64,000 nt of DNA. Origin: Closterium sp. NIES-65 (taxonomy: Eukaryota; Streptophyta; Zygnematophyceae; Desmidiales; Closteriaceae). The notes under the pieces are model-generated. The model saw nothing but the letters and a program-made list of their open reading frames with translations, had not been told where the DNA came from and searched no databases. The translations under genes and the position numbers were made by a program. The stretch lies in contig CANXME010002464.1 in the NCBI GenBank assembly GCA_948144175.1, forward strand, positions 62,001 to 126,000, in the 5' to 3' direction. Below, in pieces: positions 42,688 to 63,100 of this stretch. Numbering within the stretch: position 1 is the first letter of the stretch; each line of letters starts with the position of its first letter.

Positions 42688-45600
42688 GTGAGTACGGACT
42701 ACGAAAAATGCCAGAGATTGAGAGATTGAAGAATCGGATCGAATTCTGCGTTACTCTCTGTCAGGAGTCCTCACTGCAGCTTGAACTCGTCCGCTGTCCT
42801 CACTGCTACAGCATTGTTCCCCGAAAATGTTGGAAATAGATTTCAAATGGATCTTCAAGGCCTCCCAGCCGGGCTGCGCTTCCGTAGGGAATTCGATAAG
42901 GGGCTTCTGTGTTTGGCGGAACATCGGTCTTTGAAGTTCGGAGAGCCGCATATTAAGTTCGTGACGTGAAATCATGGGCGTGGTTTGTATGACGTGGGTC
43001 CGTGTAGTCAGTTCACGCTGACAAGCGGAGATGACGAAAGTCTGACAAATGCTAACCTTCATCCGCACCCTGTTTCTGTTTCGTCGTACATCACTGCAGG
43101 TCGACCCGGTACAGTACATCATTGAGACCGTCGTTGACCAGCTTTCAGACAATCCTGACCGTAGATTCATTCAAGTCGAGCAGGTGAGAGCATCGTCTGG
43201 ACCTAGTAATAGGTTCAATGTGGCCTTACGTTTGCACGGTAGTACCAAGTGCTCCGTACCTCTACTGCTAAATCCTAAGTGGAAGCATATTACAAGTCGC
43301 ACCACTTATCTGTATTTCTGCAGGGTTTTTTCTATCGTTGGTGGGAACGCCAGCACGAACCAATGCGGGATAAAGTACGGAAGCTGGTGGCTTCTGGCCG
43401 ATTGGAGTTCATGTGAGTCAGCCCATGCCTTGATGTAGACCGGGATTCACTGACAACATCGCATTCTGACATGTGACAGGAGGGATACGAATCTAGTAGC
43501 ATCACCCATGCTTTTTCAAGTTTTCATTACCGTAGCATGCATGCATTCGCTGAATTCAAGTTTTCCCTCACCTCCAGAGCATGGCGTGTAGGTCATGCAT
43601 GACAGGAGTACTGGGCATGCTGCACACCCCCATGGCGGGATGTTGAAGAACCCTCATTTGACATGTCATCCCCCCCTCCTCCCCCTCCTACAACCCCCAC
43701 TCCCGTGTCTACCCTTCCCCCCACTTCCCCCTCCCTCCCCCTCCTTTCCTTCCCCTTCTTCTCTCATACACATATCTTCTATGTTTCTTCCATGTGCTAT
43801 GCTGTGCAGCAACGGCGGGTGGGTGATGCATGACGAGGCGTGTGCACATTACACGGACATGGTGCATCAGATGGCCATGGGGCACCGCTTCCTCATGGCG
43901 ACATTCAACGTCACCCCGCGCATCGCCTGGCAGATCGACCCCTTCGGCCACTCTGCTACTCAAGCCAGCCTCATCACTGCTCAGGTGCGGCCTGGGCAGG
44001 TGGTCCTTCCCCTCCTTCATTTCCCTTCCCCCCCACCTCCCCCCCACTTAGTCCCCCCCCACCCCTCCCCACATGCATGTCCACCAGGCGCAGTGTTCAT
44101 GGGGAGGGTGGACCAGCAGGCAAAGGACGCTCACATGGCCGCCTGCGAATTCCAACCCCTGCCCCCTTTCCCATTCCCCATCCCTTCCTCTCCACGAAAT
44201 CACCACCACCCCTCTCTTCCCACCTTCCCCTTTCCCCCACCCTTCTCCCACAAGCATCTCTCCACCAGACGGGGCTACAAGCGGTGTCCATGGGGAGGGA
44301 GGACCAACAGGAGAGGGAGACTCGGTTGACCATCCACTCCCACCCCCGACCCCCCATCCCTTTTCCTCCCCCACCTCCCACACACGTGCCCACCAGGCGG
44401 GGTTGGAAGCCGTGTTCATGGGGAGGGTGGACCAGCAGGAAAAGGAGTCTCGTTTGGCCGCCAAAACAATGGAGTTTGTGTGGCGGGCAGACGGGGCGAC
44501 GCAGAGAGAAAACCAGGTGTGTGCTAGGGTGTGCTGCTGCTGTATGGTAGGGTGTGTTACGGTGGATTCTATTGGAAAAGCAGACTCGTTTGGCCACCAA
44601 AACAATGGAATGGAGTTTGTGCGGCGTGCTGAAGGGGCGTCACAGAGAGACAACCAGTTGTGTGTGATATGTGAGGAGGCTGATTGAATGGTAGGGTGTG
44701 CTGCTGGGGATTGAATAGGAGAAGCAGGCTCACATGTCCGCCAGGACATCACAGTTCGTGTGCCAGACAGGCAGGCAGCTGTATTTCTCTAATACACGAA
44801 CTGGGGCCACATGTGGTATTGTCTACGACAGACAATACGAAGGTTCGTTCGAGGCAACCAGGTGGGCCACATGTCATGCTGTTGAGATGTAGGGTGTGCT
44901 GTTGTGGAGCGAATATTGCGTGCGTTGTACGGGTGATGGTGAAGATAGGATCTGGTGGTGCTCGTGCATTGAGTGTGCTTCGGTTAGATTGGTCGTACCA
45001 AGGTCACCATCTTCTCTCCTCTTGTCAAATGCAATGCACCTGATCCGCTAGATTGCATGTAGCAAAGCGAGTTCTTATCCTCTTCTTACATTTTAATTCA
45101 AAACTAGCAGATAGCACTGTGAGTCAACTCTGCCAGCGGCAGATGAAGTCAAATTCGCGTCAAAGACTTTGGATGTCACGAGCACCATCGGATGTCATGC
45201 GCCCAGCAATCAAGGTGGCTTTTTTGACGTTCGCGAGCGCGGCGATCTCGATTTAAAAAAACCTTCATCGTCAACCTTGGAATGGTATTCGGTTACTACT
45301 TGCCCATACCAGGAAACAGACGATCCTACCAGCCATTCCCCTCGCCACCCCACTCTCTCCACCCCTCTCCAACCCTCTCCCAGGTGCTGGGAATGGTATC
45401 CTATGATGGTTACTACTCGCCCTCACAGTTCCGCTACCAGGACTCAGACGATCCTTCTTACCGCATTCAGGTACTCCCTCGCTCTCTCTGCTGCTCTGCA
45501 CTCGCCCCTCTGCTGCAACGCACTTGCCCCTCTGCTGCAACGCACTTGCCCCTCTGCTGCAACGCACTTGCCCCTCTGCTGCAACGCACTTGCCCCTCTG

Positions 45601-48600
45601 CTGCAACGCACTTGCCCCTCTGCTGCTCTGCACTTGCCTCTCTGCTGCACAGCAAGCTTCATGTGTGCACCTCTCCTGTAGGCGCGTGATAAAGGAGTGT
45701 TTTTGAGACGTCTCACCATGCCTTCCACCATGCCTTCCACCATGCCTGTCAGCACCATGCCTTGCACCACTCAGTGTTTCGGCTGATCACTTGTGTGGAT
45801 CCCTGGTCGTGTGCGCACTGAACCCCCTTACTCCTGACAACCCCATTTCACTCTGCAAGAGTAACTCCCCCTTTCCTGCCTTGTCGCACCACCACAGCTT
45901 CCCCACACCCTCTGCTCTTCCATTGCTCGATCTGCTCTACCATCGTCCCTCTGCCCTCGTCCACTGGTCAGGACAATCCCTATGGGGGTTCGCCCAACGT
46001 GCAGCGCCTGGTGGACGAGTTCGTAGCGGAAGTGACCAAGAGGGTGAGTGAGTGGCTCTTGGGCCTTCAAGTGGTTCTTGCCCAGTACATGTTTTTATAG
46101 TTGACATAAAAACGAACGTGCAGCGCCTCGCAGAAGAGTTTGTTGCAGAAGTAACACCGAGAGTGGGTGAGTGAGTGGCGCTTGGAGTGTGCTTTGAGAC
46201 GTCTTGAAAATTTTGACACCGAGAGTGAGTGGTGTGGCGCTTGGACTGTGTTTCAAGCGCACTTGCACAGTAGATGTTCGTGTTAATCATGCTGAAGTGC
46301 TCATGGTTTGAAATATGGGTGACGTGACTGATTGAGCGCGCAATGTTAGTCGCCTAAGTTTTTTTCACGTTTCTTGGTACTTGCATGGGGCCTTCAAGTC
46401 TTCTAAGTTCCCTGGTGTGCGTGATTGGCCCTCCTCTGTACCATCCACAGCGTCTTTCCACCCGCCAACCCCTCTATCTCAAAACCCTTTCTTCCTCTCA
46501 CTGCCTTAACCGTTGCTCTCCACGGTTCTCATCTCACTCACCCCCCAAGGGGCCTCACGGGTTTAAGATATGCTGTTCCCTATGAGCAAGGACTTTGCGT
46601 TGAACCAGCCACCCTTCACCCATTGCATCCTCTGCACCTCACCGAGTGAGTGAGGCTCACTCTCTCCCACACACTCTCCCGAGGAAGCAGAGGGCTTCAA
46701 GGCGAATCACCTGCTGCTTCCCATGGGCGAGGACTTTACCTTGAACCAAGCCCTCACTCACTCACTCACCCACTCATTCACTCACTCACTCACTAACTCC
46801 CTTGCTGCTTCTTCTACACCTTACTCTCTCTCACACTAACTAACAGGCGGAGGGCTTTAAGACGAATCACCTGCTGTTCCCCATGGGCGAGGACTTTGCG
46901 TTTGACCGCGCCATCTTGTGGTTCAAGAACATGGACAAGCTCATTCACTACGTCAACCTGGTCGGTCGCTCGCTGGGTGGTTGGTGTGGTATGGCATGGC
47001 ATGGCTTGACATGACACATCATGCGATGGGATGGGATGGGATTGCATGCTATCTCGTGGTTCAAGAACATGGACAAGCTCATTCATTATGTCAACCTGGT
47101 CAGTCGCTGTTGGGTCGCTGTGTGTTAGGCATGGCTTGGGATGGCATGGCGTGGCATGCCATCTCGTGGTTTAAGCTCATTCACCAAGTCAACCTGGTCA
47201 GTTGCTCGCTGGGTGCGAAGTGGGCTGATGGATGCTGGATGATTGGGTTGGGTCGCTGCTGGTTGCTTGGCTTGGCATGGCATGGGGTGGGATGGCGTGA
47301 CATGCCATGCCATCTCATAAGAAACCAATTTTTTGCACCTTGGGATGAGATTTTACCCATTTTAACTCTGTACCTGTGTTACAGGACGGGAGGGTGAACG
47401 CGCTCTATTCCACGCCATCCATGTATCTGGACGCACTCCACTCTGCCAATGCCACGTGGCCTCTCAAGACTGGTGACATGTTCCCGTGAGTCAGCAGGCA
47501 GGCAACGGTTTGGTTACCCCTGCAACTAGCCATCCCCACCCACCTGCACCCATCCGCGCCCACACGCACTCACCACACTGCATTCATCTATATATGTTCT
47601 TAAAAAGAATATACATCTCTCTCACCCATCATGCCCCCCTATCGCTCACCCATTCCCCTTCCCCTTCTCCCTCCCAATCTCTGCTTTTCCATGCCCAAGA
47701 GTCTCTCACCCCAGCCATGGGGAGGACGGCTCAGCACGCCCCACCGGGCGGCACAGCACACCCCGCTGGGCGGCACAGCACACCCCGCTGGGCGGCATAG
47801 CACGGCACAGCACACCCCGCTGGGCGGCATAGCACACCCCGCTGGGCGGCACAGCACGCCCCACTGGGCGGCACAGCACGCCCCACTAGGCGGCACAGCA
47901 CGCTCCACTGGCCGCCACAGCACGCTCCACTGGACGGCACATCACGCCCACTGGACAGGCTGGGCCATGGCACAAGGGAACCTATTCTCTGCATAGAGTT
48001 CTCACATACCCTCCCCCCAGTCTCCCCCCTTCCCGCTCCCCTCCCCCCTTGCCTCACCCCTCACCCCATGCATGTGCCCCTCGCCCCAGCTATCAGGACG
48101 ATGGGCCCTACTGTTCGGGCTACTTCAGAGGAGAAACCATTGTCCGCATATGTTCTCGCGTTCCCCCCTCGTCCCCATTCCCCTCCCTCCCTTCCGCCCA
48201 CCCTCTCCCTCCCCTCCGCCCATGCGCCCCTCGCCCCAGCTACCAGGACGACGGGCCCTACTGGTCCGGCTACTTCACATGAGGACCCTTCTCCGCATAT
48301 TTTCCCCCGTCCCCCAACCCCTCCCTCTTCTCCGTCCATGCGCTCCTCGCCCCAGCTACCAGGACGACGGGCCCTACTGGTCCGGCTACTTCAGCAGCCG
48401 CCCCTCTCTGAAGCTCCTCGCGCGCTCCTGCAGCGCCCTGCTGCTGGTGCGCTGCCCTCTCAACCTGCTCATTTGATGTGGTGTGGTGTGGTGTGGTGTG
48501 ATGGGATGGGATGGGATGGGCTGGGATGGGCTGGGGTGGGATGGGATGGGATGGGATGGGATGGGATGGGATGGGATGGGATGGGATGGGATGGGATGGG

Positions 48601-51600
48601 ATGGGATGGGATGGGATGGGATGGGATGGGATGGGATGGGATGGGATGGGATGGGATGGGTTGGGATGGGATGGGATGTCACATTGGGTCTTACTCCCTG
48701 AAGCTCCTCGTGCGCTCCTGCAGCTCGCTGCTGCTAGCGCGCTGCTTATTTCAGCTGCCTGTTTCTGTGTGATGCTATGGGATGGGATGGGATGTTGTAT
48801 GGTATGATGCGATATGCTGTGTTGTGATGTGATTATGATGTGACGCGAGAAGAGAATTCACCTATTAATTGTTTCCCTCCCTACAGTCACATCATCCAGA
48901 CCTGCCGCACCCTCCCATCTTTCACTCTGGCCTGTTGTTTCAACCATTTGAGTCAACTCAACAGTCACATCAATCACGTTTTCCTCACTCACCCATGTTT
49001 CACGCAACCCGTCGGTCGATGCTGCTCACCTGGCCTACATGCAGGGGACTGGTTGGTTGGTTGGCATCAGTGCTGGAAGCTACGGATGCCTGAACCCATC
49101 TGGCTCACGTCACTTGGCGCGCCCTTGAAAAGCACACTTGCCATTGCTTCCTTTCAAGGACAAGAAGTGGGCTGAAGCTGTCTTGCTTACCCCAACAGCA
49201 TCACATGTGTGCCTGTCCTGCTCTCTCGTCCTTCAGGCCACCACAGCAGCAGAGGCAGCAGTGGGGAAGGAAGCGCTACAGGCATGGGGCATGGCGACGG
49301 GGCGCATGATGGTACTGGAGCACCTTGTGCTCGACACACACATGGGCAAGACGACCAGAGACAGCCAGAAGGAGGAGAAGCAGGCGGATGGGGGGGAGAG
49401 TGCGGGAGGGGTGGAGCGGATGAGGGTGGGGTGGGAGGGCGAGCGGCGGGTGCGAGTGGCGAGCTCGTTCCGGTTGGAGGAGGCGGTGGCAGTGGTGTAG
49501 CACCATGATGGCATCACAGGCACGGCGCAGCAGCATGTTACCGATGACTACTCTGACAGGCTGCACCGCGCTTCTGAGGAGGTGAGGGTTGCACGGATAG
49601 AGGTTGATCCCTTCAGTGCACGGGTAGAGACTGCTCCTGTGAGTGTATAGCATGGGCTAGAGGAGGCGGTGGCGGTGGTGCAGCACCATGATGGGATCAC
49701 AGGCACGGCGCAGCAGCATGTTACCGATGACTACTCTGCTCTGCTGCACCGCATTGCTGAGGAGGTGAGGGATGAGTGCATGGGTAGAGGTTAGTCCCCT
49801 CAGTGCAAGGCGAATGGACTGGAGGAGGCGGTGGCAGTGGTGCAGCTCCATGATGGCATCACGGGCGCGGCCCAGCAGCACGTTACTGATGATTACTCTT
49901 CCAGACTTCACCGCGCTTCAGAGGAGGTGAGTGCGTGCCTGATGACTGGCTTGCTACAGCTAGGGCTGGTCGGGGTTAGGGTTGAGCTCGTTCCGGCTGT
50001 AGGCGGCGGTGGCAGTGGGGCAGCACCACGACGGCATTACAGGCACGGCACAGCGGTACGTTACTGATGATTACTCTGCTAGACTTCACCGCGCTGCGCT
50101 GGAGGTGAGCTGTGGTGTGGATGGCGACGGATGGTATTAGGTGCTGCGTGCATGTGTGAGCTCCTATGCGTGCATGTGTGAGCTCCCATGCGTGCAACAC
50201 CGCATCACAGGCACAGCACAGCAGCATGTTACTGACGACTGCTCTGAACGGCTGTATTGCACTGCACTGCCGAGGTTGGGTGCTGCGTACATACACGTAT
50301 GGGTTGGTTTGGTTTGGGTTGGGTTGGGTTGGGTGCGACATGCATGGTATTACCATAGACTGCTCCTTTAAATGGGTTCAGGCTGGTGCTAGCCTCCCAA
50401 CCTCACGGGCCCCCATTCCCCATACCACCCACCGCCGACCGCCGACCCAGGCATCCACCAGCTGTGCTCACAGCAGCCCTCATGCACCTCATCACGCGAG
50501 GCACCCCCCGCCCCTCCCCAGACACTCCACACACCTCGGTGACTTTTGAGTCGACTCAAAAGTCACCTCACTCCACACACCTCACCTCACCATCCCCATC
50601 TTCCCCACCTATCCCTCCCACCGCCCATACAGGAATCAGCCGTGCTGACACCTCATCATGCGAGGCACCATCCCCCCTCTCCAGGCACTTCACACACCCC
50701 ACCATCCCCATCCGTACCCTACCCCCTCCTGCCAACTTCCCCTCCCATCTCCCAACCTCCCATGCCCCACCCTACCAACCGCCCATGCAGGCATCAGCCG
50801 TGCTGACAGCAGCACTGGCGCACCTCATCACGCGAGGGACCCTCCCCCCATCCCCATCCGTACCTCCATCCAACCTCTCCTCCAACCTGTCCTCACGGGC
50901 AGCAGCAGCCGTGGAGTTCACATTTAGGGAGGACAGTGTCGAGCAGCGCGGGTGGGGGTTCTGGAACCAGTTAGCAGATGGGGCGGAGGAGGGGGACGAG
51001 GAGGATGAGGAAGATGAGGGGGACGAAGAGGGTAAGGCACGCAACAAAATCGACAGGATGAATGAGTTATTGTATGAGGCGGATAGAGCAGGTGCGGCGG
51101 ATGACGAAGATGAGGGGGATGAGGAGGCGGGCGAGGGAGATGGTGGGAAGCATGCTGCAAGGTCCCGTGCAAAGAAGAAAGTCCCTCACGTGACGGAGGA
51201 GGCAATATTTGAGTCGACTCAGAAAAATTCCCGTGTGGAAAAGAGGGTTCCTGACAAGGAGGAGGAGGAGGAGGAGAGAACAAGCGACCCCAATGAGGTG
51301 TTTGACCCTCAGTCGTTGCAGCCAGCTGACCCTCAAGCGGTCCAGAATGGTGCTGCTGGCCGTGCTGCTGACGGCACACGGGCTGAGGAGAGGAGGGTGC
51401 AGGAGGTGGAGGAGGGGCAAGTGAGCAGGGGGCGGAGAAGGAGGGGGGTGACGCTGGGCGACGGTGCCAAAGCAGAGCAGGGGGGACAGCAGCTTCCTTC
51501 ACTGAACCTGAAAATGGTGTGTGATGGTGTTGATGGTGGCGGTGTGATGTGGTGGTGGTTTGATGGTGGTGTGATTGTGGTGTGATGGATGGTGGTGTGA

Positions 51601-53961
51601 GTTGATGGTGGTGTGATGTTGATGATTGTAGAAGTGCGAAACAGGAGCTGGTCAACGAGGTGACTGATTCCCTGGATGTTTCTTTTTGCTACGCCACGAT
51701 GGTCAAAGGGGCGATTGGTTGGATTCAATGAAATTGACAGGTTTTGAGACGTCTCAAAATTAGACGTTGTAAAACCAAAGGGGCAATTGGATTGGATCAG
51801 ATCAGGTTGACAGACTGTACCAACCAGACCAGCTGCTCTTTCAACTGCTCCCACGACGTCTGAGCATCACAAATTGTTGTGCTCCAACCATTTGTGACCG
51901 CTATGCTCCTAACCTCTATGCCGCTTCCATCTTGCCTGTCATCCTCTCATCCCTCCTCCCTCTATCACCCCCTCTCATCCCTGAATTCCACTCCCCACCC
52001 TCCCTTCCTTCCCCCCTCTTCACAGTGCCCTCTGCTCAACATCTCCTATTGCCCTCCAACCGAAACACCCCTGCAGCCAGATCAGACCCTGGTACGTACC
52101 CTGCGTGCTGTGCTGTTTCACATGCCATGCCACACACACACCATCCCATAAAGCGCCGTGAAGCATTCCCTCATGCAGTCAGTCAACTCAAAACCCACTG
52201 ACCTGTGCATCCTTGCTTCCCTCTGTTTCACTGCCCATTTCCCAACTGCCCGTTTCCGCATCTCCTTTGCTTGCCTTCCTTGCTACTTTCTCACTCACCT
52301 CTCACATCCATCCCTACTCTCACCTCCATCTAACTTCTCACCCACCTCCCTCTCCATCTCTCTCTTTCAGTTCCATACGCACCGCTTGTCTCCATGCTTC
52401 CTCCCTCCCACCCATATCCTTATACCCGGGCACCTTTGAGAATTCCCAAGGCACCTTTGAGAACTCCCAAGGCACCTTTGAGAATTCCCAAGGCACCTTT
52501 GAGAACTCCCAAGGTACCATTGGGAATTCCCAAGGCACCTCATCCATATCATATCGGCCCACACGTCTCCACCTTTCTCATCCATCCATACCCATCGGGC
52601 CATCCCACAGGTGGTGGTGGCCTTCAACCCTCTTATGAGGTGCCTCAAAAGCACCTCATCTGTATCATATTGGCCCACACGTCTCCACCTTTCCCATCCA
52701 TCCATACCCATCCCACAGGTGGTGGTGGCCTTCAACCCTCTCGCGTGGTCCCGCTCTGAAGTGATTCGATTCCCGGTATGAGTGCACCGCGCACCCTTCA
52801 ATGCTGTTACTTGCTTCATCCATCTTGCCTTGCATTGGCATTAAGCATCAGCAATTGCATCAGCAACTGCATGGGCACCTGCATGGGCACCGGCACCAGA
52901 GGTCGACAGCATTAACAAGTGAACGATTTGTTGCCCTCCTCTCCCTTACAACGCAGAGGTTTCACACACTCTCCCTCCCCACACAACACCCCCCTCCCTC
53001 TGTTCTCACTCCTTGATAGGTATCTTTCCCCAGCTTACTCCTCACTGCTGCCTCTCATGCCCCCATCCCCTCTCAAATTTCTCAACAATCACTCTCCTCC
53101 CTTTTTACATTCACTCCACTCCAACCACATCATGTCTTACGCCCTTTCCATCCCTTCCCTCCTCTGCTCCTCCCTCTCTCTCTCCCCTTCCCACTACGCT
53201 CCTTGACAGGTGTCATCCCCCTACCTTCTAGTCACTGATGCCTCTGGCGCCCCCATCCCCTCTCAAAAACTTCAAGAGACCCTCCTCTCCCCTCCCTCTG
53301 TTCCCCCCGTCTCTCCGCCTCTCCCACTGCTCTCCCTGACAGGTGTCATCCCCCCATCTCCTTGTTACCGACGCTTCTGGCGCCGCCATCCCTTCTCAAA
53401 TACTCCAAGAGACCCTCCTCTCCCCCTCCACCTGCTCCACTCCAACCACATCAGGGCTTACGCTTTCCCTTCCACCCCCTCCCTTCTCTTCCTCTCCCCT
53501 CTCCCCCTCTCCCAATGCTCTCCCTGACAGGTGTCATCCCCCAATCTGCTAGTCGCCGACGCCTCTGGCGCCCCCATCCCCTCTCAAATAATCAGGGAGA
53601 CGCTCGTCACCCCCGCCACCCGCTCCACCTACATTGCTGCTTACACTGGCGTGGGGGAAATAGTAGGAGAGGTGGAGGGGGAGGAGGAAGGGGTGGAGGG
53701 GGGGGAAGGAGGGGAGGAGGGAGCGGAGGAGGGGGAGGAGGGGGATGAGGAGGAGGGCGGGGAGGGGGAGGAGGAGGAGGAGTGGGTGGATTATGGGGAT
53801 GGGCGAGGGCCGCAGCCGAGCCATAAGCCGAAAAGGAAGCATCGGGAGAGGCAGACGAAGGAGGAGACGGGGGGAGAGCAGAAGGAGGGAGAGCAGAAGG
53901 AGGGAGAGCAGAAGGAGGGAGAGCAGAAGGAGGGGGAGCAGCGGGAGGGAGAGCAGGAGGG

Positions 53962-54005
<44 letters not shown>

Positions 54006-57000
54006 CAGTGCTGTCGCTTGTGTTTTATGCAGAGGTGCCTCCTCTTGGATTCGCCACCTTCTTTGTCTCGCCAGCAACCCAAGGTACAGCACCTATCATC
54101 AGTCAGGTACGCTGTCTAGCCCATCTCGAAAAATCGTCACTCGGGTTTGCTACTCATGGCGGAAGAGCAGCAAATCTGAAGCTTGTCAAAGTACAGAAGC
54201 TGTGGTATACAGCTCGCTAAGGTATGTTCCAAGGAAAGAGCTCACTGGAAAGGACGGTTTGCCAAGGTATGTTCCATGCAGACAAGCACATGCACAGAGA
54301 GCAAGCAGAGCATGCTACGTGTGTGCTTCCTGTCACACCACAGCACCCCTGCAAACCACTCTGCTCCCTTGCTCACCTGCCTCTCACAATTCCACGCCTT
54401 CCCCACGTGCAGACACACCTGGCAGAGCGTACGAGAGTGCTGCATGGAGCAGTGTGGTTGACGCTACAGCAACAACGGCAGCGGCAGCAGCAGCAGCACA
54501 GCCTGTGGCAGCACCGCTGCCTGCGACAGCAGCAGCAGCATCATCAGCATCTGAAAAGGCATCAGCTGAGACGGAAGCTGCAGCGGCCCAGGCAGGGGCA
54601 GCCGAGAAGCAACCCGGCAAGGCGGGGAGGGGGAGGAACACGAGAGGGCGGAGGATGGCGGTGCGCGGTGGACAGGAGGGAGGGTTGAACGGTGGGGAGA
54701 GGAGAGGGAGAGAGGCGGGGAGCAGGGGGAGAGGAAGCAGGAGGGGGTTGCATGGCGGTGGTGGGGGAATGGAGGAGGGCAAGATGGGTGGGGGAGGAGG
54801 AGAGGGAGGGGGAGGGGGAGGGAGGGGGCTGGAAGGGGGTGATACTGTTGTGCTGGGAGGGTGGCAAGGCGTGGGGGCCACTCGTGGTAGCGGTGCTGCT
54901 GGTGCTGGCACGGACGGTGGGGAGCGGGCTGCGTTGCGTGTCTCGTTCTCCAAGTCAGCGGTGGGCATGCAGCGGATGGAGCTGGTCTCTCGGAGTGCCA
55001 ATGGCACGGAGGAGGTTGTGGTGAGTGGTGTGGCACGGGGGAGATTGTGGTGTGGCAGTGGAGTAAGTAAGTGGTGGGTGGTGATGTGACTATGGCGGGC
55101 AATTAGCGATGGGTGTTGAGTGAGGGAAAAGGGTTGGCTGGCGGCATGAGCAGGGATGACATGGGCAGGGATGACATGGGCAGGGATGACATGGGCAGGG
55201 ATGACATGGGCAGGGATGACATGGGCAGGGATGACATGGGAAAGGATTACATGGGCAGGGATGATTTGTTACTGGCTGGGATGATTTGTTACTGGCTGGG
55301 ATGATTTGTTACTGGCTGGGATGATTTGTTACTGGCTGGGATGATTTGTTACTGGCTGGGATGATTTGTTACTGGCTGGGAAAGCGAGATTAGAAAGGAT
55401 AGAATGGGTAACCTCCTGCAAGCTGTTGCAGTTGAAGAGCATATTGACTTGACACAGTGGATCGTGTCAATCCTTCTTTCTACTTTCTTTGCAACTAAAG
55501 CATAGCGTACTCACATAGTGAAGCGAAAACACTGTACTTTCCAGTCCAGCCGACAATGGCACTTGGTAGGCACTGCACTTGTACCATCCTCAAATGGATG
55601 TAATTTCTCGTTGTGCACTCCTGTTACATGCCCTGTCATGTCATCTGCTCTGCTCCCTGCATACCATGGCACGCACCCCCTCACCCCACCACATCATCCC
55701 ATCCCACGCCCCCCCATGCCGCGCCATGGCACAGCGCATGGGCATGGCAGTGAGTGCCAGCATGATGGAGTATGCCACCTTAGCTTGAGGTGCATACATC
55801 GTACCACCTCATCCACTCCACCCCACCCCATGCCACGGCAGCGCATGGGCATGGCAGTGAGTGCCAGCATGATGGAGTATGCCACATTCGCCGGCGGCGC
55901 ATACATCTTCCAACCCTCCAAGCCAGCCATGCCCATCACCTCCACCAACGCCACCTACCAGGTCAGTCAGTGGACGTGTGGGTCACAACAAGCGCCAAGG
56001 TGCACGCAGCATGGCTCTCACACTCCACTGATAGAACCAGTGCCTTGAGTCTCCACTGGTAGAACCAGTGCCTTGAGTCTCCACTGGTAGAACCAGTGCC
56101 TTGAGTCGTTCAAGTCACAGCAGGTGCATACATCTGAGTCGCTTTTGAGAATTCTCAAGAGCGACATCTTCCAGCCCACCAAGCCAGCCACGCCCGTCAC
56201 CACCAAGCCAGCCACGCCCGTCACCACCACCACGAATAGCACTCACCAGGTCAGTGGGCGGGAGGGTGGGTCACGACTCAGAACCACCACCATGACGCAG
56301 CATGCCTCTCGCAGGGCAGTGGTGGCGCCAGTGGCAGTGTCTTGAGAATGAAAAGGTCAGAGGAGGTGGTGTGTGCACCGCAGCGCATGGGCATGTACGT
56401 GATGCACCATAGTGCGACATGCTTGTGATGCTTCTCCTGCTGCACCGGTGCTGACTGTGCCTTCAGTGTAGAATGGCTCTTGATGGCTGGGGTGGGTGGG
56501 TGCTCTCGTGGGTGCGTGCGTGCATGGGTGGGTGGGTGGGTGGGTGGGTGGGTGGAGTGAAGCCGCTTTACAGCACCAGGCCTTTGATTTCCATGAGATT
56601 TTTGTTCTGCTCTGCTGACGTGGCACAGGTGCCCATTCACATCCAGCGTGGACCAATCGTGGAGGAGTTCAGCCGCCAGATCACTCCATGGATCTCTGAG
56701 GTGAGTGCACTTCCTTCACCTCCTTCTCCTCCACCTCCTTGAGTATGCAGGGCACTTTTCAGAAACATAAACCCGCAACTTCCTGCAGTGGTGCATAAAT
56801 GGATTCCCTTTTTGTTACCTCGCCCTACCCACTGCAACGTGCTTCCACTGCCTCATTGCATCCTCCCGCTGCTTGCGTCTCTGCCGCTCTGCACCGCTCC
56901 CAACTCCCAGGTCTTCAGAGTGTATCCAGGGGGGGACTACGCTGAGCTGCACTATTCCGTGAGTGCTCTCTGATTCTTGCACACCCTGGTTTCCAGAATC

Positions 57001-60000
57001 CGCATGAACCGACTCTTCATTTCAGTCGTCTCACAAGACATTGCCTGGGCCAACCGGCTGTGGTCTGACAAGACATTGCTTGGGCCAGATGGATCCCTGC
57101 CCCCCTGGGGTGGCAACCAGACCAGAGGTGCTTGTGAAGCCATTTCCACGCGATGGAAAAGGAATGCGCTGCTCGTTCACATCAGCCTGTGCTGTTCATT
57201 GCTGTGTGCGTGCGTGCGTGCGTGTGTGTGTGATGACCAGGTGGGTCCGCTGCCCGCCAAGCAACCCAACCACGAGGTGGTGACTCGCTTCGTGTCGCCC
57301 ATCAACAGCAGCAAGGCCTTCTACTCCGACTCCAATGGCCGCAGCTACCTCAAGCGGGTGAGACGTTGTTTGTTGTTTGTTGTGTACACACACAGTCCGT
57401 GTTGGCGCCTGGAAGCTCTCTTCAATGCGCCCATCAACAGCAGCAAGGCCTTCTACTCCGACTCCAATGGCCGCAGCTACCTCAAGCGGGTGAGACGTTG
57501 TTTGTTGTTTGTTGTGTACACACACAGTCCGTGTTGGCGCCTGGAAGCTCTCTTCAATGCGCCCATCAACAGCAGCAAGGCCTTCTACTCCGACTCCAAT
57601 GGCCGCAGCTACCTCAAGCGGGTGAGAGGGTGTTTGTTGCGCTCGCATGAGTGTACACTACACGGTCATTGCTTGCTGCTGCCTGGCAACTCGACACGCT
57701 TCACTGCTCCCATTGACAGCAGCACAACCCGCTATTCTGAATCCAACAGCCAGAGCTACATCATGCGGATGACTTTCGTGGATAATCAAAAGTGACTTTC
57801 AATAGCCTGAGCTGCAACAAGCGGGTGAGAGAGGTTGCAGATCTGGGTTCCTGACAGGCTACCGTTGACAGGAGGAGCTCTTTTCACGCAGTGGGGTGGG
57901 TGGTTGATCGCCACGTGTATGAAGTAATGTTTTGAGATGTCTCAAAGCTATATCAAGCGGGTGAGAGAGGCTGTAGATTTGGGATCCTGACAGGCTACTG
58001 TTGACAAGAGGAGCTCTTTTCACACAGTGGGGTGGGTGGTTGATCGCTTCCCTCCTCGTGACAACAGCAGCAGCACTGGTCACCCTGATTCAAGTGGCGG
58101 AGTCACATCAAGCGGGGTAGAGGGTGTTGCCTTCACGGCTCCCATCCACAGCAGCAAGACAAATGCCATTGCCAAGTGGCAAATGCTCCTATGGACGTGC
58201 CCAATATACCGCCTATAAGGTGACTTTTGAGTCGACTCAAAAGTCACCAGGTGGCAAATGCTCCTATGGACGTGCCCAAAATACCACCTACATCAGCCCA
58301 GCATCCCACACACCATTCCACCATCCCCACCATCCTCACCATCCCCACCATCCCCACCATCCCCACCATCCCCACCATCCCACCATCCCCACCATCCCCA
58401 CCATCCCCACCATCCCCACCATCCCCACCATCCCCACCATCCCACCTTCCCCACCATCCCCACCATCCCCACCATCCCACCATCCCACCATCCTCACCAT
58501 CCCCACCATCCCCACCATCCCCACCACCACCACCACCACCACCACCACCACCACCACCACCACCACCACCACCACCACCACCACCACCACCACCACCACC
58601 ACCACCACCACCACCACCACCACCACCACCACCACCACCACCACCACCACCACCCCGCGTTCAGGTGGTAGACTACTGCTCTGACTTTTGAGTCGATTTC
58701 AAATTCATCCCATCATCCCCACCACCCCGCACGCATTCAGGTGGTGGACTACCGGTCTGACTGGGACCTCAATGTCACCAACCCCATTCATACCCTCTCC
58801 CTTCACCATGCTGTCTCCATTCACCACCCACCACCCCCACCACACCACCCCACCATCGCATGTTCAGGTGGTGGACTACCGGTCTGACTGGGACCTCAAT
58901 GTCACCGACCCCATCGCAGGGAACTACTACCCGGTGAGTCAACGCAAGTCAACAGAGTCAGGACAGTCAATCACAGTCAACTAGAGGCAGCAGAGTCAAC
59001 CAGAGTCAACTCAAGGCAAGAATCAGTGCACCTGGGAGTGGTCCTGTCTATGAATGACGCAATCGCATTGGCAAGTCAATAGGAACAAGAGTCTTCTCTT
59101 TTTGTTTCCCCTCCGAGCCGTCGTGCACCCATCCTTCTCTTGATTTGCCTTCTTCCATCATCCCTTGCTCTCCACTCCACTCCAGCTTACGGTCGGGGCT
59201 TTCATAAAGGACAAAGAAGCCCAGTTGTCCGTGCTTGTGGACCGGGCGGCAGGCGCTGCCAGCCTGGCATCCGGCCAGATAGAGGTCATGCTACACAGGT
59301 GAGGTCACTGTAGCATCTCTGTAGCACAGGAGAGGGTACTGTAGCACGAGTGAGGGTACCGTAGCACGAGTGAGGGTACTGTAGCACGAGTGAGGGTACT
59401 GTAGCACGAGTGAGGGTACTGTAGCACGAGTGAGGGTACTGTAGCACGAGTGAGGGTACTGTAGCACGAGTGAGGGTACTGTAGCACGAGTGAGGGTGCT
59501 GTAGCACGAGTGAGGGTACTGTAGCACGAGTGAGGGTACTGTAGCACGAGTGAGGGTACTGTAGCACGAGTGAGGGTGCTGTAGCACGAGTAAGGGTACT
59601 GTAGCATAGGTAAGCCTGTTAGAAAGAAAAGAATGATGGAAGAGTGATTATTCTATTAGAGAATCACAGAAATACACAGGTGAGAAAAACGGGGAGGAGG
59701 GGGGGAGGAGGGGAGGGGCGGGGAAAGGATACTTTGGCCAACATTATTGGCCCCCACCAATAGGTTGATTGGGAAATTATGGCGGGGGCCGATATTTTTT
59801 GTAAGGGTGTGCCAAGATTATTGCGTCTCCAGTAATCTCCCAATCCAACCTTTGGGGGCCAAACGATTGGGCCAAGGTCAGACACTCAACCCCACCTAGG
59901 GTAAACCCTGTATTGTGCTCCCACCTGTAGTTTGAGCAGAATGATGGTACTGTGGCACAGTGATGGTACTGTAGCACAGTGATGGTACTGTAGCACAGGG

Positions 60001-60083
60001 GGTGCATGCATGTATTCATGGAAAGTTGCGTGTTGGTTACAGCTGCTACACCAATCCTGGTTTGATGTGCTGCAAAAACAAAA

Positions 60084-60121
<38 letters not shown>

Positions 60122-63100
60122 ACACTCTTCCATCACTGTCTTACCAACCTTGACATCCATCTTTCCTCATCTCCCTGCCTCTCCCCACATCTTCCCCCGC
60201 CCAGCCTGCTACCGACTGGGCTAAAAGGGCATGTTTGTAGGGTGGGTAGCACACCCATAACCCCCCAGGCCGCACCTGTAGCCCTCCCACACTCAACCGG
60301 GAACGATCCCAGTGCCCCACCAACACCCCCATCCCCTCCCCCGCTCACATGCCACCAGGAAGCTGAGTTCGCTGGACGGCAAGGGCGTGGGGGAACTGCT
60401 GCAGGAGAGCAAAGCACGTCTGTCACACCCTTGTGACTCGTCACACCCTTGTGACCCATCTTCCCCCATCTCTCCCATCCCCTCCCCCACTCACATGCCA
60501 CCAGGAAGCTGAGTTCGCTGGATGGCAAGGGCGTGGGGGAACCGCTGCAGGAGAGAATCGCACTGGGAAACAGGACCCGCTCCCTCACCGTGAGTGCCTC
60601 ATGTGTTTCGGTGACTTCTGAGTCGACTCAAATTCACAAGTCACCTCCTGTGACTCGACTCAAATTCACAAGTCACCTCCTGTGAGTCGACTCAAATTCA
60701 CAAGTCACCTCCTGTGAGTCGACTCAAGGGGGTGGGGGAACCACTACGAAAGAGCTTCACACCGGGCAACAGGACCCGCTCCCTCACCGTGAGTGCTTCT
60801 TTCAGTTATTTCTCTGTAATCTTTCAAGGGCCCATTACTCATGTACGTCTGTGGCCCCACCCCTGCCATATTTCCTTCCTTCCATTCAAGTCACAACCCT
60901 TCCTCCAAACCTCCACCCCTCCCTCCCCTCCATCTCCCAATGCTTCTGCCTGATACCCACTCCTCAACATCCCCCCCTCCTCCTCGCCCACTTCACCCTC
61001 TTTCTCCGCCCAATACCATGTACGACCAACCGTCTCTCCCCTGCCCTGCAGTTACCAGAATCTTGGCGCTTAGAATCATTCAAACTGCACACTGGGCACC
61101 ACCGAGAACGTTTAAAGCGAGCACTCTCCACCTCTTGAACCCTCCAGCAACCATCGCTCCCTCCTCTGCCGTGCACGTTGTGGGCTCGCTGCACACAGCC
61201 GCGCATAGCCCCACTTCAGTTGGCCGTCACTGTTAGCTCTTCAGAACGCCCCCATCCTCCAACAACCATCTCGAATGGTCCTTGCATTGATTAAGGGGTG
61301 GTACAATGGAAGATGCAAACACATGCAACAACCATCTCTCTCTCTCTCTCCTCCGTCCTGCAGGCTGTGGGCTCCCTGCGCTTTGGGCTGCCTACACAGC
61401 CCATTTCAGCTTGTCCTACCTGGTGCAGACTATCCCCTTTCAATCTCTCTTACCCTCGAACAACTGACTCTCCTCCACCCTCCCAGCAACAACCATCTGT
61501 CTCCTGCCCGGCAGGTTGTGGGCTCTCTGTGCTTTGGGCTGCATCTTGAAACAGGCTCTGACGAAAGAGCAGGGGAGCACGAACGAAGGGGAGCAAGGGG
61601 GCCGCTCATCGCCCCACTTCAGCTTGCCTTACCTCGTTTGGGCTAAGCCCTACCAATCTCCCCCCACCCTCCAACAACTGTCTCTCCCATGCCCGGCAGG
61701 TTGTGGGCTCGCTGCGCTTTGGGCTGCATCTTAACACAGGCTCTGAAGAAAGAGCAGGGGAGCATGAAGGGGAGCAAGGGGAAGAGCGTGTGGGGTTGGG
61801 ACAGGGAAGCGAGTGGAGGAGGCAGCACGCACAGCACCTCCTAACCCCTCTGCAGCTCTCGTTTGCGGTTGAAGTGAGCCCTTTCCATGCTCCTCCCTCT
61901 CTTTCTCTTCGCAAGTTTTCAATTGCATGTCACAGCACATGCACGCAGCACATGCACCCGGCACATGCACGCAGCGGCTCATCATAGCCCCTCTCCGGCT
62001 CGCCTTTGCCGTTGAAGTGAGCCCTCGCCATCTCTCACTCAGTGACCTCCTTCCCGCCAACCCTCTGCCTCTCCTTGATGATTCTTGCCCTTCCCATGTG
62101 CTCCCTCTCGCGCTCCTCTGCTTCCCTTGCAAACCATCTTGCTCCACCGTCAACCTTCCATCCACTCGAACCTCTCTCCATCCATCTCTTCTCTGACTCC
62201 TGCAGACTCAGCAGTCCATCAGGGCAGCACAAGGCAGCTACACGTGGCACTACTCCCTCTCCCAGCCATCATCCACATCAGCATCCTCCACGTCATCCAG
62301 CAAGCCTAACAGTGCTTCATCCTACTCGGTTCCTCCCAATGTTGCTGTCATCACGATGCAGGTAACAATCATCGTGCATGCAGGCAAGCACTGTGTTGTG
62401 TTGTAAGAGGCGCCTCGACATCACTGTGTATCATCCGTACTTAACACTGTTGAGACGCGTCAACATTCGTGCTGCACACATTAATCTTCCACTATTTATT
62501 ATCGCTTCACCTACCTTTCGCTAACGATAATCTAGGCACTTCAGCAAATAATCGTCCACTCCACTCCATCACTCCTCTGCCCTCCCTTCTTCAACCTCCC
62601 ACACCACTTATAGTTGATCCTTCATCCATCAGCACCCCCATGTTCTCACCACCAGCATACGTGGAGGAGCTTTGAGAACGCTGTGTTGTATGCTCCATCA
62701 GAATGCTGTGCTGTGCCATGCCGTGCTGTGCTGTGCTGCAATGCTACTAGTTGTTCCGTTTATCTCAAACGCGCTTGTGCCACTGTCACATGTGCAGGAG
62801 CTCTCACCAAGCACGGTTGTCTTGAGACTAGCTCACCTGTATCAAGTGAGTCCCACACTCACTCCCTCTCACTCATTCTCTCCTCACTCACATCTCTTCC
62901 CTCACACACTCCTCGTCCGCACTCGCGCTCCTCCCTCTCTCACACCCCTGCCTCACTAGTGCCCTTTACTCACTCAAATCCCCCCCCAGTCGGCCTTCCA
63001 TCCATCCTGCCCTGCCGTACTGCACCGCTTCCAATCCTCTCAAAATCTCACCGTCCTCTCCTCTGCATTGCACTGCACCACTTGCACTCCACTCCCCACT

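Follow-up and report, generated by a model that had tools for sequence, protein, structure and literature searches.

Why should a short palindrome lie, again and again, exactly between two copies of a duplicated segment? Here, we address this question for the introns of an alpha-mannosidase gene of Closterium sp. NIES-65, contained in a stretch of 64,000 nucleotides (contig CANXME010002464.1, positions 62,001 to 126,000; hereafter the window) that is part of the contig we refer to as C2166 in an assembly of 874 Mb and 2400 contigs. The palindromes share an 18-bp core, TTTTGAG-NNNN-CTCAAAA; we denote the duplicated host (target) segment beside a palindrome as D and its two copies as D1 and D2. 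An earlier note on this sequence had offered two explanations, i.e., that a palindrome moves and leaves long duplications of its target or that a hairpin causes replication to stall and thereby sets off local re-copying. We found that the copies are dispersed and that most sampled copies were inserted together with a target duplication of 11 to ~100 bp. In favor of the first explanation are an excess of such duplications in the samples, the D-palindrome-D junctions, and the existence of a palindrome-free relative with one D for six sites. Specifically, we consider it probable that the palindromes are a nuclear mobile family captured in staggered breaks with fill-in, where capture is the step that we infer.

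Palindromes and duplications in the alpha-mannosidase introns

The host gene is indeed an alpha-mannosidase of glycosyl hydrolase family 38, with exons at 43592..57795 on the forward strand and the domains Glyco_hydro_38N, Laman-like_dom, and Glyco_hydro_38C in three of the six frames scanned. Alignment confirmed direct repeats on both sides of all eight palindromes named in the earlier note, the coordinates of which were correct, and no strand is assigned to any of these palindromes. The repeats are strong at four sites. At 50538..50567, the perfect 30-bp palindrome GGTGACTTTTGAGTCGACTCAAAAGTCACC of the TCGA class lies within a target duplication spanning 50523..50583, in which D1 (50523-50537) and D2 (50569-50583) are identical in 15/15 positions. 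The GCGC-class palindrome TTATGAGGTGCCTCAAAA (52633..52650; the 52636 site) lies between duplicates at 52535-52632 and 52651-52740 (86/98), and the insert at 57912..57953 (the 57931 site), which consists of CACGTGTATGAAGTAATG, the core TTTTGAGATGTCTCAAAG, and CTATAT and is of the ACGT class with one full arm, lies between duplicates at 57818-57911 and 57954-58047 (87/94). A second perfect 30-bp palindrome of the TCGA class (58219..58248) has duplicates at 58172-58215 and 58247-58290 (41/44). The repeats are fair at the 58683 site, where the degenerate core TTTTGAGTCGATTTCAAA (58686..58703) is flanked by 58638-58685 and 58710-58761 (41/52), and at 60609..60694, where a tandem run of degenerate TCGA-class palindromes is flanked by 60526-60600 and 60725-60799 (63/75). 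They are weak at the 46195 site, a degenerate ACGT-class palindrome with three mismatches (CTTTGAGACGTCTTGAAA, 46192..46209; duplicates 46154-46191 and 46216-46250, 32/38 columns), and at the perfect 18-bp core TTTTGAGACGTCTCAAAA (51742..51759; duplicates 51704-51740 and 51776-51813, 32/39 with gaps). For four palindromes outside the earlier list, i.e., those at 45701, 48946, 51207, and 56143, no duplicate was found on checking the flanks; among them are a core with two mismatches (45701..45718) and the AATT-class palindrome GTCGCTTTTGAGAATTCTCAAGAGCGAC (56138..56165).

Altogether, the window contains 18 cores with at most three mismatches, 16 of which lie within 45701-62448, while ten first-order shuffles of the window gave a mean of 0.8 such cores and none with at most two mismatches. 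Under a strict test, in which a repeat must be present in exactly two copies at most 25 bases from the core on both sides, 4/6 cores with at most one mismatch and 1/12 with two or three mismatches scored, compared with 42/1072 control positions (43-63.5 kb). Because control positions overlap one another, the Fisher p values (4e-5 for the cores with at most one mismatch and 7e-4 for all 18) are optimistic. Two-copy duplications without a palindrome are also present in window 43000-64000 (e.g., 48197-48277 = 48313-48393 and 55732-55800 = 55839-55907), and local duplication is frequent in this region, whatever its cause.

A dispersed palindrome family

The exact word TTTTGAGNNNNCTCAAAA occurs 30,327 times in the genome (874 Mb) and the reversed-pattern control four times; the assembly contains near-identical contigs and, therefore, the number of independent insertions is lower. 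The family is spread unevenly, as the only six cores with at most two mismatches among twenty stretches (191.6 kb in total) chosen at even steps along the contig numbers fall in 2/20 stretches. The contigs that carry the sampled copies are 144 kb to 2 Mb long. The only plastid DNA read, a 3.9-kb stretch around rbcL (L066), had one chance-like match with three mismatches. An exact 28-mer was not found in viral_contigs, nor a 24-mer in genome_contigs, where records of the source genome may have been left out.

Junctions were scored in three sets of loci. Set 1 (L001-L004 and further loci, n=24) and set 2 (L045-L052, n=8) were chosen with their flanks unseen and are the first-listed matches to TTTTGAGNNNNCTCAAAA, all on contigs C6, C9, and C10. 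Set 3 (n=8; contigs C21, C27, C43, C66, and C71) was picked by an ACGT-class arm motif, leaving out the satellite piece L065, and scored with looser limits (score 13, 40 bases). The junction statistics come from fewer than 100 cores, compared with ~30,000 in the genome, with the first 32 loci from three contigs; the sampled DNA used for scans (307,677 bases) is a small part of the genome and biased toward core loci.

An exact core lies at a direct-repeat junction, with at most 25 bases on both sides, in 18/24 loci of set 1 and 8/8 of set 2. Among the six misses, L001 shows a repeat once scoring is relaxed, in L002 a repeat of 149 bp lies at a greater distance, and L025 and L040 have repeats enclosing two or three palindromes; L032 and L039 have no trustworthy repeat. 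Counting only junctions with exactly two copies, 15/39 exact cores in set 1 and 6/12 in set 2 scored; the remainder comprise 13 and 5 multi-copy junctions and 11 and 1 cores without a junction. Control positions scored in 42/4419 cases (even-step stretches), 42/1072 (window), 10/1060, and 6/766, i.e., 0.8-3.9%, so that two-copy junctions are ~10 to 60 times commoner at exact cores (Fisher against the 6/766 control, the positions of which overlap, 4e-17 for set 1 and 3e-9 for set 2). An earlier two-copy test gave 23/66 cores compared with 25/4042, 16/552, 10/1084, and 20/533 controls. If junctions of two or more copies are counted, 28/39 and 11/12 exact cores score compared with 1670/4419, 110/1072, 80/1060, and 31/766 controls; this looser measure does not set the cores apart from satellite-rich stretches. 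A first control from such stretches, in which 1368/3635 positions scored compared with 43/66 cores, was accordingly dropped. In set 3, the program found a duplicate in 5/8 loci (17, 22, 27, 29, and 35 bp; one of the five scores 14). Of the others, L064 has an 11/11 repeat found by eye, L058 is doubtful, and the query core of L057 lacks a repeat while another core in L057 has one of 15/15. On these samples, the first of the two checks proposed in the earlier note came out positive, with flanking direct repeats in excess over controls.

The duplicates have no fixed length. At 45 junctions (arrays dropped), they span 15-237 bp, of which the longest, in L026 (237) and L006 (127), are weak matches. 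Hence, the previously proposed range of 15 to ~100 bp broadly stood, but the actual range is somewhat wider, with 11 bp by eye in L064 and more than 100 bp in a few weak cases; overall, duplicates are usually 11 to ~100 bp.

The center of the core is self-complementary in 43/48 exact cores outside arrays (TCGA 20, ACGT 15, GCGC 5, AATT 3; the ACGT share is inflated by the choice of set 3). The fullest TCGA form is AGGTGAC-core-GTCACCT (~32 bp) and the fullest ACGT form CACGTG-N12-core-N12'-CACGTG (~54 bp). The palindromes are 18-54 bases long, with inserts measured at 18-53 bases, and their arms are trimmed on one side or both, as in set 3 with left and right arm lengths of, e.g., 14,11; 19,0; 0,15; and 17,16. 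In 15 two-armed copies of the ACGT, AATT, and GCGC classes, the two arms of a copy match each other at 95%, a value biased upward by selecting sites with complementary arms, and other copies of the class at 62%. The close agreement of both arms, though subfamilies differ, implies either selection on the palindrome or its renewal, with one arm serving as the template for the other. The arm plus half core TGAAGNAGTGTTTTGAGAC gave 533+561 matches compared with none for its control; 85 of the first 100 listed fall in one satellite (C71), and at least seven contigs outside that array contain it. This recurrence indicates that arms mark subfamilies, and makes it unlikely that the arms of the ACGT class are formed anew with each insertion. 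Unpaired half cores are nearly lacking in the sampled DNA, in that seven half-site words sought outside palindromes gave nine rows in 307,677 bases, with one locus running into an arm. We rejected the idea of a long element that bears one palindrome half at each end, as none of the nine rows in these bases resembles a terminal repeat.

Among strong palindromes in the sampled DNA, 55 have the core and six do not (three expected from one shuffle), and none of these six has a duplicate (0/6). A 44-bp palindrome with another core (L043 1262-1305, CCTGTTCGGTTCGCCTCGAACG...) is also without a duplicate.

Origin of the duplications

If a palindrome arrives together with its duplication, relatives of the site should carry one D and no palindrome. 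We searched the sampled DNA with probes in which the left flank, one D, and the right flank were joined (68 and 70 probes). Homologous relatives of this kind were found for six sites with seven insertions, while most probes had no relative in the sampled DNA. In the window, the 58683 site has an empty relative in a homologous local unit at 58822..58914 on the forward strand (95 columns, 87%) and the 50538 site one at 50649..50713 on the forward strand (66 columns, 85%), with more in L054 and L056. Outside the window, L044_401 has two (61 columns, 92%, and 79 columns, 84%, both without gaps), L057_180 has one (73 columns, 97%, no gaps), and L034_401 matches a stretch of L004 (110 columns, 80%). 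L028 has two nearby relatives with one D each (102 and 105 columns, 86% and 82%). The relatives of the 50538 site and of L028 come from the first probe search only; the second, with a low-complexity filter, other limits, and another D pair for L028, did not list them. This second search named nine sites, of which L034_401, L044_401, L057_180, and the 58683 site were retained. The candidate relative of the 51742 site was rejected because it proved to be the left flank of this very site in contig C1881, and those of L029, L047, L050, and L056_1959 were rejected as gapped, weak alignments. Searching for D-D joins without a palindrome gave 32 matches; judged by gap counts and locus names, these represent palindrome arrays, filled copies aligned with gaps, and one relative with a single D. 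Thus, the empty sites in the sampled DNA carry one flank copy and not two, which argues that the palindrome and the extra D arrived together at these six sites. L028 additionally holds, at 357-535, two palindromes of different classes between three D copies; its duplicates of ~44 and ~40 bp have ends 1 and 3 bases apart, as if the locus had been cut twice at the same places.

We suggest the following sequence of events. Two nicks in opposite strands, tens of bases apart, would generate a double-strand break with overhangs, in which a palindrome fragment, either a hairpin or a duplex bound by protein, would be captured. End joining would seal the fragment in via short homologies, and fill-in of both overhangs would yield the two D copies. 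A dimeric protein bound to the 18-bp core may protect the supply of fragments; trimming would then stop at the core because the protein would cover it. Later events rework the sites, giving palindrome + D arrays, the 89-bp satellite in C71, and a reshuffled copy of L029.

The junctions themselves are consistent with such joining. At 23/35 informative ends, at least 1 bp is shared with the next arm base, compared with about a quarter expected by chance, and at 18/29 ends if L012 and L044, in which neighboring palindromes confuse the count, are left out; the arm consensus for this count was drawn by us from the same data. No target consensus was detected at 77 ends relative to local composition after allowing for 80 tests (lowest p 0.0056). 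An apparent sequence preference of the cutter, an A excess seen earlier, came partly from neighboring palindromes and disappeared once such ends were dropped. The D copies are identical at 11/46 junctions; therefore, some insertions may be recent.

Several points weigh against capture in staggered breaks. First, captured filler is normally of any origin; here it is one family, so the fragments must be supplied or targeted, and we found no enzyme or autonomous element in a search limited to half sites. Second, most of the empty relatives are local paralogues, and an empty site could arise again through recombination between D copies. Third, no insertion polymorphism was found, as the second copies compared for the window gene, L029, L031, L032, L033, and L035 are all filled. 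Fourth, 23/70 ends bear extra bases that belong neither to the arm consensus nor to D. Fifth, the divergence of D copies is not significantly correlated with core decay (rho 0.22, p 0.14), although a common age predicts a correlation. Sixth, multi-copy junctions are no evidence alone, since 1628/4419 controls in the satellite-rich even-step stretches score likewise, and the intactness of the cores is partly built in because loci were found by their core. Finally, the same introns of the window hold many spaced duplications with no palindrome between the copies and, therefore, the palindrome is not the sole thing found there.

The allele comparison rests on the following copies. The alpha-mannosidase region is present in six copies at 97-100% (window 50300-54000, C2166:212335-216031, C853, C1430, C1881, and C1786), and one contig carries two of these copies at a distance of 100 kb. 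The C1881 copy, compared in part, has no indel at the palindromes across 50300-54000, and 57472-58654 aligns unbroken. The L031 and L035 regions have three copies each and are full length in two further contigs. In C1658, L032 (709/818 bases) and L033 are filled, and L029 is filled but reshuffled. L069 and L029 lie in near-identical contigs that differ by 37 bp within the duplicated target adjoining the palindrome, indicating that such sites keep recombining.

A further reading, which we hold to be less likely than not, is that the family represents a kind of nuclear mobile DNA without ends. In it, a protein-bound core of 18 bp would be the sole obligatory part, the element would multiply as a self-complementary fragment in which the first arm serves as template for the second, and entry into chromosomes would occur only via staggered breaks; the element would leave long and variable duplications and later seed arrays and satellites.

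Among the alternatives, insertion of a short hairpin RNA (18-54 bases) by target priming, similar to a short interspersed nuclear element (SINE) moved by non-long terminal repeat (non-LTR) retrotransposon machinery, survives best, and we regard it as unlikely. The two nicks of the endonuclease would give variable duplications, and second-strand synthesis on a self-complementary template would give the palindrome. Target priming typically produces variable duplications of tens of bases and microhomology at the junctions, as observed here, and would fit arms that are trimmed in many copies and agree within a copy. However, there is no target consensus at the 77 ends, no tail was seen, and, with both arms trimmed, no end is constant; furthermore, truncation into the core, which 5' truncation would produce, is nearly absent in the sampled DNA.

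It is improbable that the palindromes are ultra-short transposons moved in trans, with a pair of terminal inverted repeats joined back to back and a transposase dimer recognizing TTTTGAG. The presence of TTTTGAG in both halves, the agreement of subfamily arms on both sides, and the near absence of lone halves would suit such an element. In contrast, DDE-type transposases leave duplications of one fixed short length, while those found here are 15 to ~100 bp with no fixed value, and no copies with their arms apart around a cargo were seen in the 307,677 bases sampled, a small part of the genome.

The hairpin explanation of the earlier note, in which a pre-existing palindrome stalls replication and the next stretch is re-copied on its other side, is disfavored and in our opinion very doubtful. 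It needs the palindrome before the duplication, but the relatives with one D have no palindrome; moreover, re-copying should usually yield two palindromes, while the common, simple junctions have one between two D copies. The palindrome + D arrays, the C71 satellite, and the reshuffled L029 copy do show continuing rearrangement, and re-copying is likely as a secondary process in these.

That there is no special element, and that palindromes merely occupy some gaps among many local tandem duplications, fits the palindrome-free spaced duplications in the same introns and the multi-copy repeats abounding in control stretches, but is contradicted in the samples examined by the ~10-60-fold excess of two-copy junctions, by the dispersal of the cores as one sequence family, and by the six other strong palindromes without a duplicate, and retains hardly any probability.

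Known mobile palindromes, arrays, and neighboring features

Mobile palindromes are a kind already known; the duplication habit of the present family fits staggered-break repair. Among the open-licence papers listed for nuclear palindromic elements with target duplications, for fill-in duplications, and for the letters of the palindromes, we found no description of this family or of a nuclear counterpart. In yeast mitochondrial DNA, the palindromic GC clusters (GC42) are 42 nt long, multi-copy, and mobile-looking; they have direct repeats AG or ACT and a palindrome under constraint, and where a cluster is absent, a single set of the target nucleotides is present (PMC4478555). The Closterium palindromes are likewise short, multi-copy, and flanked by direct repeats, with empty sites that have one target copy. 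In contrast, the GC42 clusters are mitochondrial and form looped hairpins with AG/ACT repeats, while the Closterium palindromes are loopless with repeats of 11 to ~100 bp. More generally, the Closterium family shares with organellar mobile palindromes that it is short, multi-copy, and dispersed, but its flanking repeats are 15-237 bp rather than 2-3 bp. Volvox carteri has short palindromic repeats, of which the plastid ones are 14-79 nt with the motif TCCCCTTTAGGGA and loops of 3-5 nt; they are also nuclear (~65 kb of the scaffolds examined) and called selfish, with the nuclear copies suggested to be inert organelle transfers (PMC2670323). The Volvox repeats resemble ours in being short multi-copy palindromes that also occur in nuclear DNA and differ in having their own plastid motif and loops; as far as the main text of that paper goes, it contains no word starting with duplication.

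Tandem duplication by fill-in at staggered breaks has been demonstrated in cells of mouse and human, and a similar origin has been suggested for plants; such small duplications are of variable length, mostly <100 bp, and arise by end joining of breaks with overhangs (PMC8355091). The Closterium sites match them in variable length, lack of a target motif, and microhomology; unlike those duplications, the copies of which are adjacent or have extra mutations, the Closterium copies enclose one dispersed palindrome family. Whereas end-joining filler is of arbitrary origin, the inserts here are one family with subfamily arms. In plants, duplications of the same type are also reported for adjacent single-strand breaks and, in rice, for natural insertions.

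REPINs and Rickettsia palindromic elements are tiny, palindromic, dispersed, and presumed to be moved in trans; they are bacterial, and we know of no long target duplications in them. Miniature inverted-repeat transposable elements (MITEs) and foldback elements are short, non-autonomous, and built of inverted repeats separated by a spacer, and their target duplications are short and of fixed length. The Closterium palindromes share with them the shortness and inverted repeats; they differ in that the duplication length varies (11 by eye to ~100 bp) and the halves abut in 43/48 exact cores. As in SINEs and long interspersed nuclear elements (LINEs), the duplications are variable; no constant 3' end or tail with truncation only at the 5' side was found.

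If our preferred reading, capture in staggered breaks with fill-in, is true, staggered breaks have left thousands of natural records in the nuclear genome, in which each duplicate measures one overhang and from which break geometry, fill-in, and end joining could be read at scale. Mobile palindromes, as in organelles and bacteria, would then extend to nuclear chromosomes, with a duplication habit that we have not found described for them, and their insertions would add to intron growth in the alpha-mannosidase gene.

Palindromes and D segments also form arrays with a spacing of 37 bp in L030, 53 bp in L036, and 42 bp in L051. The satellite at C71:74264-81847 (L065) has 89-bp units comprising a 53-bp ACGT-class palindrome and ~36 bp of D; it is a palindrome insertion turned tandem array, and D-palindrome-D thus offers a simple route from a single insertion to an 89-bp satellite.

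Elsewhere in the window, a 132-bp unit that includes a mannosidase exon is repeated 2.6 times at 99% at 57296-57639, and several copia-type retrotransposon frames with RVT_2, rve, and gag_pre-integrs domains lie at 1542-41081. The rbcL gene is plastid-type, looks like the green type, and points to a photosynthetic host; 475 residues align to solved Rubisco, the assembly contains 20 full-length matches, which occur in either orientation, and a near-perfect 72-bp stem-loop (L066 1361-1432) adjoins it.

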